Of a DNA stretch of 64,000 nucleotides, positions 52,151 through 55,629 are shown piece after piece. The translations under genes were made by a program, and so were the position numbers. The stretch's first letter is position 1, and the number at the start of each line of letters is the position of its first letter. The notes under the pieces were generated by a model. The model was not told the origin of the DNA. It worked only from the letters and a program-made list of their open reading frames with translations, and did no database searches. The stretch comes from Treponema sp. (lineage in GTDB: Bacteria > Spirochaetota > Spirochaetia > Treponematales > Breznakiellaceae). The stretch lies in assembly GCA_031266775.1 (NCBI GenBank), contig JAISAQ010000056.1, forward strand, positions 98,655-162,654, given 5' to 3'.

Positions 52151-52244
52151 GCGGTACTCCCGCTTCATTATCGGCAAAACAATCCCGTTTTTGCCGCGTG
52201 TTTTTAAACGGAATATGCCGATATACATACTATAGGAGTTATCA

Positions 52245-52502
52245 ATGGCCAGTAAATGTCAATTTTGCGGTTCTTCCGGTTATGGTCCCGGCTGTCCCAA
52301 AAGCCTCAACGGGCTTCACCAGCACAACAATGATGAAAAACACTGTATCTACTGCGGAAAATCATCCTACGGAAACGGATGCCTTCAAACGCCGACCCGC
52401 AAGCACGTCCACGGGCACGGCGCCAACAAGTGTGTCTACTGCGGTTCAACCGACTTTGGCATGGGCTGCAAACACAGTCCCACAGGCAACCACCAAAAAT
52501 AG
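52245..52502 (+). CDS. Small protein of three tandem CxxC-x8-C-x7-H zinc modules
   Basis: 85 residues almost entirely made of three copies of one motif with an exact 29-residue period: C5-C8-C17-H25, C34-C37-C46-H54 and C63-C66-C75-H83, each with CxYCGS..YG.GC. Modules 1 and 2 add a second His two residues later. Each module probably binds one zinc (C3H). TAGGAG is 7 nt before the ATG. No signal peptide, membrane segment or enzyme motif; a nucleic-acid- or protein-binding role is likely, and I do not recognise a named family. Confidence 0.85.
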   Translation: MASKCQFCGSSGYGPGCPKSLNGLHQHNNDEKHCIYCGKSSYGNGCLQTPTRKHVHGHGANKCVYCGSTDFGMGCKHSPTGNHQK

Positions 52503-52540: not shown

Positions 52541-52705
52541 TTACGCGTCTGTCAAAGATTCCGCGATAAAGCGGGCAAAATCTTCTATTTTTTCAGTGAG
52601 GTTCTTGTCGGAAAAGGTCGCGAGGGCGGGCCTTAGAAAAATGGCCTTTTCCGCGAGATCCATGATGATGCGCCGCTTTTCGGCGGTTAACGCTTCATAA
52701 TCCAT
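52541..52705 (-). CDS. Probable 54-residue helical protein
   Basis: An ORF from ATG 52705 to TAA 52541 encodes 54 residues, starting MDYEALTAEKRRIIMDLAEK and ending FARFIAESLTDA. Its codons look like those of the surrounding genes (GCG, GAA, CGC, AAG, GCC) and the sequence is a plausible amphipathic helix bundle. There is no clear Shine-Dalgarno, and no family is recognised. It fills most of the otherwise empty 322-bp spacer and runs opposite to both neighbours. Confidence 0.45.
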   Translation of the reverse strand: MDYEALTAEKRRIIMDLAEKAIFLRPALATFSDKNLTEKIEDFARFIAESLTDA

Positions 52706-52824: not shown

Positions 52825-55629
52825 ATGAAAACCAGAATTCTTGCCGTATCCCTTTTTACGGGGATTTTCATGTGTACGTTCCTTTACGCGGGAGGCCGGA
52901 GCGCCGCCCCCAAACAGGCGCCTGCCGAAGATGTCTGGACCCTTCTTGAAAAGGGGGACGCCGAAAAGGCAAGAGCCCTGTTCCTTGGCCGGACCAGTGT
53001 CGGCGACAGGGACAGCCGGGGCAGAACCCCGCTGCACATGGCGGCCGAAACCGGGGATTCCGATCTTGCGTCCTTTTTTATTTCGCTGGGGGCGGAAGTA
53101 GACGCCGTTGACAACGACGGCCGCACACCGCTTGGAATAAGCGCCGGGAAAAGGGACGGCAAAACCGCCGGGGTGTTCACCGCCGCCGGGGCGGATATTC
53201 ACGCCTTAATGCCCGGAGGAACAAGTCCCGCCGTCACCGCCGTCTCCTCGGGGGGGGCCTTTCTCAGGGCGATCCTTGACCCCGCTTCCGTAAAATCAAC
53301 AGATAAAAACGGAAAAACGATTCTCCACATCGCCGCCGCCGCCGGCAATACGGAGGCTGTCCGTATCATACTTGAGGGGGAAAGCCCCCTTGATATCAAG
53401 GACAATGACGGGAAAAATCCCCTCGATCGCGCGCTGGAACGGCCGGATTCGCAGAGCCACATGGAATGCGCGGAACTGCTCATACTGCGCGGCGCCCGTT
53501 CGGATCTTCCCCTCTTTGCCTGGTTTGCGCCCGCGGCGCGCGTTATCAACTACAATATCCGCGGCGCGGACGGTTCCGCCCCCCTCCACGCGGCGGCCCG
53601 CGAAGGTTACACGGGATTCATCAGTTTTCTCATCGCCAGAAAAGCCGGCGTCAACATCAAGAACGCGTCGGGAACCACGCCGCTTCATGAAGCCGCGAGA
53701 TCGGGGAACATGAGGGCCATGGAACTTCTTCTTGACGAAGGCGCCGACATCAACGCGCAGGACGCCAAAGGCAACACGGTACTCCATGTCGCCATTCCGG
53801 AAGCGGTACACCGCGAAGCCCTTTCCCTTTTTCTTTCACGGGGGGCAAATCCCAACATACGCGACGTGCACGGCGAATCGCCCCTCCACATCGCGGTAAC
53901 GCTTAACCGCGGCCCGGATATAATCCAGACGCTGCTTGGGGGAGGCGCCGACACTTCCATCCGCAACATAGACGGAAAAACGGCCCTGTACCTTGCCGTC
54001 GAGGAAAACCGCGAGGGCATCGTGCCGCCCCTTCTTTCATACGGTTCGGACATATTTGCCGCGGACAACGCGGGAATTACCCCTTACGAAAAGGCGCTGC
54101 TGGACAGAAGCCCGCTTCTTGAACAGCTTGTTACCGAAGAAACGGTGCAGAAAAGCGACAGCGCCGGCAATACGCTGCTGCATATCACCATACGGAACCA
54201 CGGAGACGCGAAGATCGCGGGGCTCATCCTTGACAGGAGGGCCATGGTGAACGTACGCAACAAGGAAGGCGACACAGGGCTGCATATCGCGGCGCGCCAG
54301 AACGAGGAAGAAACGGGATCTCTCCTCCTTTCCCGCGGGGCGGATATTTTTGCCCCGAACGCCCGTGAAGAATCTCCCCTGTACCTCGCGTTCCATTCAC
54401 CGGCTTGGCCCATCGTTGATTGGCCTGGAACCATACGGAAATGGATGATAACCCCCCTTACGCTGGAAGCCAGGGACGGGCTTGGAAATTCCATCCTTCA
54501 TTATGCGGCGCAGTGGAAACTTGACGCGTACATTCCCTATCTCATACAGGAAGGGGCCCCTACCGAAGCCGCCAATGCCACCGGGGAAACTCCCCTCTTT
54601 ACGGCGGCCAAGTACAACGGCTCATCGACGATCCGGGTTCTGCTTGCCGCCGGGGCTTACCTTCACGCCAGAGACAGTCTGGGGAATTCCGCCCTTCATA
54701 CGGCGGTACGCTGGAACGCCCCCCTTGCCGCGGAAAGCCTTCTTGACGCGGGAATCGACATCAACGCCCATAACCTTGCAGGGGAAACTCCCCTGCACGA
54801 AACGGTGCGGCTCGGGATTGCCGATCTTGAAACGATGCTGATACGCCGGGGGGCGGACCTTGAGGCCCGTGACAATGGCGGCAATACCCCGTTCATGGCG
54901 GCCGTTACGGGGGGAATTACATCCCAGGCGGAACGGCTGGCAAACCACGGCGCCGATCCTGTCGCGAGGAATGCCAAAGGCGATACGCCCCTTCACGCCG
55001 CGGTGGCAATGGAAAGGAGCGATCTTGTCACCCTGCTGCTCGACTGCGGCGCCCCTATACACGCCCGTAATTCCAGGGGGAAAACCCCCTTCCTCATGGC
55101 GCTCTCCCTGTCGCCCCGTATGGTATCGACTCTGCTCACCAAAGACAGGATCTACGCGCCTGACGACGACGGCTCGTCCCCGCTGACCATCGCCGTCCGG
55201 GAAAAGGCGCCGGCCGCCATCGTAAAAACCATCATCGATCAGGGAGCGCGGCTTAATCCGGTCGACCGGGAAGGCCGCACGCCCCTGCGCCTGGCCTCGG
55301 ACGGAAGCGCATGGGATCTTGCCAAACTCATCGCCGACGCGGGCGCCGATCCTTTTATTTCCGCGAACGACGGCAGAACCCCCGCCGAAACGGCGCTGGC
55401 CGCGGGTGAAGAGGGAGTACGCGCCCTCTTTTCGGGCAGAGGCATTAACGCCAGGGACAGCGCCGGAAACACCATACTCCACTACGCGGCAAAGATCGAA
55501 AAACCTGAACTTATCGTTGTGCTTCTGGAACTGGGGGCCAACAAGAACGTAAAAAACATAGCGGCCGAAAGCCCCGCGGATATAGCGCTGCGGTGGAACC
55601 ACGCAGGCACGGCGGCGCTGCTCAACTGA
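52825..55629 (+). CDS. Exported ankyrin-repeat protein
   Basis: 934 residues with a signal peptide (ILAVSLFTGIFMCTFLYAGG, cleaved near residue 23). From ~35 to the end are roughly two dozen ankyrin repeats of about 33 residues, with recognisable GRTPLHMAAETG, GTTPLHEAARSGN and GNTILHYAAK cores. Some repeats in the middle (around 500-560) are degenerate. It is likely in the periplasm or at the surface and mediates protein contacts; there is no catalytic motif. No clear Shine-Dalgarno precedes the ATG, and the spacer upstream is hairpin-rich. Treponemes carry similar ankyrin proteins (for example TP0502 and TP0835 as I recall). Confidence 0.9.
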   Translation: MKTRILAVSLFTGIFMCTFLYAGGRSAAPKQAPAEDVWTLLEKGDAEKARALFLGRTSVGDRDSRGRTPLHMAAETGDSDLASFFISLGAEVDAVDNDGRTPLGISAGKRDGKTAGVFTAAGADIHALMPGGTSPAVTAVSSGGAFLRAILDPASVKSTDKNGKTILHIAAAAGNTEAVRIILEGESPLDIKDNDGKNPLDRALERPDSQSHMECAELLILRGARSDLPLFAWFAPAARVINYNIRGADGSAPLHAAAREGYTGFISFLIARKAGVNIKNASGTTPLHEAARSGNMRAMELLLDEGADINAQDAKGNTVLHVAIPEAVHREALSLFLSRGANPNIRDVHGESPLHIAVTLNRGPDIIQTLLGGGADTSIRNIDGKTALYLAVEENREGIVPPLLSYGSDIFAADNAGITPYEKALLDRSPLLEQLVTEETVQKSDSAGNTLLHITIRNHGDAKIAGLILDRRAMVNVRNKEGDTGLHIAARQNEEETGSLLLSRGADIFAPNAREESPLYLAFHSPAWPIVDWPGTIRKWMITPLTLEARDGLGNSILHYAAQWKLDAYIPYLIQEGAPTEAANATGETPLFTAAKYNGSSTIRVLLAAGAYLHARDSLGNSALHTAVRWNAPLAAESLLDAGIDINAHNLAGETPLHETVRLGIADLETMLIRRGADLEARDNGGNTPFMAAVTGGITSQAERLANHGADPVARNAKGDTPLHAAVAMERSDLVTLLLDCGAPIHARNSRGKTPFLMALSLSPRMVSTLLTKDRIYAPDDDGSSPLTIAVREKAPAAIVKTIIDQGARLNPVDREGRTPLRLASDGSAWDLAKLIADAGADPFISANDGRTPAETALAAGEEGVRALFSGRGINARDSAGNTILHYAAKIEKPELIVVLLELGANKNVKNIAAESPADIALRWNHAGTAALLN

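Follow-up and report, generated by a model that had tools for sequence, protein, structure and literature searches.

What is the function of a bacterial protein of 85 residues that is built from three cysteine-rich modules in tandem? This question is raised by a gene in a 64,000-nucleotide stretch of DNA (the window) from Treponema sp. (Spirochaetota; assembly GCA_031266775.1, contig JAISAQ010000056.1, positions 98,655 to 162,654 of the forward strand). The predicted product (MASKCQFCGSSGYGPGC...HQK*) carries the layout C-x2-C-x8-C-x7-H in three copies, each of which is very likely to form a metal site, judging from the sequence. This module is not peculiar to the window protein but is widespread in phages, mostly in two-module fusions. 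A nucleic acid-binding role is preferred here, tentatively.

The frame is a real gene, because the ratio of nonsynonymous to synonymous substitution rates (dN/dS) is low (0.05-0.24 against relatives, i.e. strong constraint) and homologs are present in several phyla and in phages. Most homologs, like the window gene, are preceded by an AGGAG-like site. The small size of the frame and the absence of any entry in the family libraries searched might suggest a chance open reading frame, but that reading is already refuted by the dN/dS values, the spread of homologs over several phyla, the invariant ligands and a repeat that far exceeds shuffled controls; its probability is practically nil.

The modules of the window protein are spaced 29 residues apart. 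The cysteine and histidine positions that the sequence-only reading had assigned to this repeat (Table 1) are correct: self-alignment scores +124 at an offset of 29 and -22 at the next-best offset, and none of 20,000 shuffled sequences reaches +124 (mean maximum: -9, top score: 49). The motif CxYCGS..YG.GC, described as shared by the modules, holds as a consensus but is not matched by every module; only C, C, G, G, G, C and H (module positions 5, 8, 9, 14, 16, 17 and 25) are identical in all three. Modules 1 and 2 have a second conserved histidine (H27, H56), the latter residue of an HxH pair, which module 3 lacks. At the DNA level the modules have diverged (identity of 38/87 to 45/81), and so the repeat is old and not the product of a recent duplication. 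The exact 29-residue spacing is not a family-wide rule: among 41 stand-alone homologs, 26 have the spacing 29/29, 8 have 28/28 and the others vary.

In an alignment of these 41 homologs, two of the twelve predicted ligand positions are kept in 40/41 sequences and the remaining ten in 41/41, and conservation favours a single C3H (three cysteines, one histidine) site in each module over a zinc ribbon, in which two CxxC motifs would share one zinc. In one relative (L074 in G294; about 1399-1692, - strand), the fourth-ligand histidine is replaced by cysteine in all three modules with the spacing unchanged, an exchange of the type expected of a metal site. The invariance of the ligands and this exchange support metal binding. 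The bound metal is presumably zinc.

The sequence-only reading had judged the protein a strong candidate for an undescribed small zinc protein, and this is supported by the database searches, with zinc binding predicted from the ligand pattern. Neither the window protein nor the individually scanned homologs matched any Pfam family, zinc-ribbon and zinc-finger families included, above the curated cut-off. Weak matches to Fer4, zf-CHCC and Zn_ribbon_RanBP, which resemble the modules in being short cysteine-rich metal sites, fall under the curated cut-offs where these were shown and span only CxxC pieces. NCBIfam likewise gave no model above its curated cut-off for the window protein or homologs. 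No notable match to the window protein was present in PHROGs or in the PDB sequence set, and none of the 41 homologs matched a PADLOC anti-phage defence family at E <= 0.01. A tblastn search of named phages and plasmids with the window protein and the module consensus returned no match, and a literature search found no paper on the C-x2-C-x8-C-x7-H module.

An AlphaFold2 model of the window protein has a predicted local distance difference test (pLDDT) score of 84.9 and a predicted template modelling (pTM) score of 0.68. It contains nearly no regular secondary structure, as would be expected of a metal-held bead. In the model of a phage protein, the modules have pLDDT scores of about 88-95. 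Foldseek gave no significant match to either model in the PDB, and none to the window protein's model in BFVD. This blank argues weakly for a new fold, because small loop-rich models suit Foldseek poorly.

A profile scan of viral contigs recovered a stand-alone copy from a Treponema provirus and a fusion of two modules from a phage, and a DNA pattern scan showed that at least 120 viral contigs carry the module. Among the matches listed, most of the viral proteins are ~175-225 amino acids (aa) in length and have two N-terminal modules followed by a helical C-terminal domain, which is absent from the window protein as this stops after module 3. The two-module proteins of T4-like contigs resemble the window protein in module, ligand set and linker style, but have two copies, to which a helical domain (~135 aa) is fused. 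The motif CxxCGS-x-x-YG-x-GC-x4-P-x3-H and the ligand spacing are common to the window protein and the phage two-module proteins, and 50 fused phage proteins have the same C, C, C, H ligand set as the stand-alone family. Profile-profile comparison of stand-alone and phage forms gave a score of 99.8% (E-value: 1.8e-28). Stand-alone triple-module copies are also found in viral contigs (one each in L120, L170 and L197 and two in L203). A match to PHROG 2086 / 18642 (function not assigned) covers the phage helical C-terminal domain and not the zinc modules.

In bacteria, homologs were found in Spirochaetota, Acidobacteriota and one Bacillota genome. Close homologs are present in 25/149 related genomes. 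The 27 genome-contig loci are nearly all from termite-gut Treponema/Spirochaetaceae assemblies (the origin being read from the names of the isolates), with one from Acidobacteriota and one from Oscillospiraceae. A profile search of genomes from three bacterial phyla identified the family in 19/393 Spirochaetota (the last few weakly), 5/297 Acidobacteriota and 2/398 genomes of the phylum to which the Oscillospiraceae genome belongs, one of these two being a fragment with stops. The distribution is patchy, within the family of the window genome as well, and incomplete assemblies contribute to this. In a tree of the stand-alone copies the termite treponemes fall almost together and the phage rows are scattered, with many forks poorly supported. 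In termite-gut treponemes the gene belongs to the accessory genome. One genome of the treponeme order (G147) has two diverged copies (L211, L210/L057), and a protein identical to one of them is encoded in a provirus, where its gene adjoins a D5-type primase gene. In the Treponema prophage L057, an HsdS identity for the downstream gene was read by eye, and Pfam gave no confirmation. In most members of the family, the window protein and the phage forms among them, the first module stands at the very start; two have signal-peptide-like N-termini (L024, 1423-1749; L070, 1501-1818). The latter sits amid other zinc-ribbon-like proteins (L212, 7180-10397).

A survey of the genes next to homologs, suggested in the sequence-only reading, revealed nuclease and restriction genes near the phage and mobile copies. 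Among the matches listed, 71 of 90 phage loci have a SegE-type GIY-YIG endonuclease gene directly upstream; beyond it are a UvsY-like gene and, on the opposite strand, a gene for a UvsW-like helicase. In viral contig L197, an HNH nuclease gene directly follows the stand-alone copy. Elsewhere, L261 has a copy whose third module is broken, with Mrr encoded two genes upstream, and a cytosine-5 methylase and Vsr are encoded upstream of a stand-alone relative (L055). For the treponemes, whose neighbouring genes were named by eye, no conserved partner common to all genera was found among the homolog loci. The gene changes neighbours often, with guaB/purA in one group and TonB-like, HydF-like and other genes elsewhere.

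A distant two-module sister family, annotated 'hypothetical protein', is encoded on Calditerrivibrio, Myroides and Chryseobacterium plasmids (L257, L258 and L259; Bacteroidota/Deferribacterota). It is tied to the window protein family by a weak profile match alone (E-value: 4e-4). The two are alike in the CxxCG...C..[ST]P...H layout, the tandem modules and the location on mobile DNA; the sister proteins differ in having only two modules, and their second and third cysteines enclose a longer loop. DUF262 genes are adjacent in 2/3 of the loci examined, one of them with a 3'-5' exonuclease gene, and TnpB is also nearby. A further point of comparison is provided by the C(P)XCG zinc-finger micro-proteins of Haloferax volcanii, which are very small, contain CxxCG motifs, are predicted to bind zinc and mostly have no assigned function (PMC6562870, PMC11241148). 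With three CxxCG motifs in 85 aa, the window protein fits the description of this group, which calls for at least two such motifs in a protein of very small size. Compared by description and not by sequence, the window protein differs in that each bead has one CxxCG, a lone cysteine and a histidine, with three beads in tandem.

The preferred model is of a small basic three-bead zinc protein that binds DNA or RNA as an accessory to DNA processing and belongs to a mobile module family; it is put forward tentatively, with a chance somewhat short of even. Each bead would be a compact loop with one Zn(II) held by C-x2-C-x8-C-x7-H, and the beads would be connected by short conserved linkers. Their basic surfaces would bind DNA or RNA, and the protein would help or modulate DNA processing, whether cutting, recombination, restriction or its avoidance. 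The module family, which has no name, would travel on phages and on mobile or restriction DNA. Nucleic acid is favoured as the probable target because of the nuclease neighbourhoods and the basic charge: the window protein has a net charge of +6 (isoelectric point: 8.9), the family mean is +5.4, and the positive charge of the phage fusion proteins lies wholly in their zinc part (+4.4 vs. -3.1 for the remainder). Several points weigh against this model. No nuclease gene adjoins the copies in termite treponemes, and the SegE adjacency stems from one related phage group; since phages and mobile DNA are also rich in nucleases, the nuclease association is partly expected. In addition, the signal-peptide-like N-termini of L024 and L070 would place both proteins outside the cytoplasm, which the model leaves unexplained.

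A serious rival, still in contention though on balance unlikely, is that the beads serve as adaptors for protein binding; they could, for instance, be phage-derived and alter the activity of a host restriction enzyme, nuclease or polymerase to which they bind. Binding to partner proteins is well known for small zinc proteins. The phage and restriction-locus contexts would suit such an adaptor, and the helical domain fused to the modules in phages could be its effector part, but no partner gene is conserved across phyla and the treponeme neighbourhoods vary. A metallothionein-like zinc store or buffer is suggested by the abundance of cysteine (9) and histidine (8) among the 85 residues and by the existence of exported variants. 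Zinc storage is improbable because the non-ligand residues G14, Y42, G43, P50 and P79 are conserved almost as well as the ligands; moreover, four ligands at fixed spacing in each module point to one structural site each and not to a cluster, the module is joined to a second domain in phages, and no metal-transport or metal-regulator neighbours were seen at the loci examined. The exported forms could instead represent the original role, that of an extracellular or periplasmic structural mini-protein. Against this, most members start directly at module 1, and it is the least probable of these three.

The zinc gene is followed in the window by further reading frames (Table 1). The adjoining OmpA-like gene is widespread in the family, and it pairs with an ankyrin gene in the window's genus only; the large ankyrin-repeat gene is itself confined to that genus among the loci examined. 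The small convergent frame may be a real gene, since the DNA 3' of the zinc gene is partly common to L030 and L031. Upstream, GCCGATA(A/T) occurs shortly 5' of the start codon in many termite-treponeme homologs and in a few other window genes. It was rejected as a specific (sigma-28-like) regulatory signal because it precedes other genes and occurs at chance frequency in the window (9 observed vs. 9.0 expected), and it looks like a general promoter feature.

Table 1. Position of the zinc-module gene, its parts and nearby features in the window
Feature	Position	Strand	Evidence or remark
GCCGATA motif, upstream promoter region	52217..52223	+	generic; also before other window genes
Ribosome-binding site AGGAG	52234..52238	+	6 nucleotides 5' of ATG
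Coding sequence, 85-aa triple zinc-module protein (P0001)	52245..52502 (including stop)	+	open reading frame translation, homologs, dN/dS
Module 1, predicted ligands C5 C8 C17 H25	52257..52319	+	ligand columns 41/41, 41/41, 40/41, 41/41
Module 2, predicted ligands C34 C37 C46 H54	52344..52406	+	ligand columns all 41/41
Module 3, predicted ligands C63 C66 C75 H83	52431..52493	+	ligand columns 41/41, 41/41, 41/41, 40/41
Small 54-aa frame (MDYEALTAEKRRIIMDL...)	52541-52705	-	convergent with zinc gene
934-aa protein, nearly all ankyrin repeats, signal-peptide-like start	52825-55626	+	adjoins zinc gene

A bolder and more speculative reading, unlikely as it stands, is that the proteins of phages, restriction islands and gut spirochaetes form a new zinc-bead superfamily that targets or modulates nucleases, in which the treponeme gene would be a domesticated phage counter-defence factor. 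If this is true, the beads would be counter-defence or nuclease-guiding modules. The recurrent neighbourhood of DNA-cutting genes offers a testable way into the role of the module in phages, and the treponeme gene, as the minimal 85-aa form, is suited to biochemistry. The module defined here is missing from the protein-family and fold libraries searched, yet no fewer than three bacterial phyla carry it, as do those 120 or more viral contigs.
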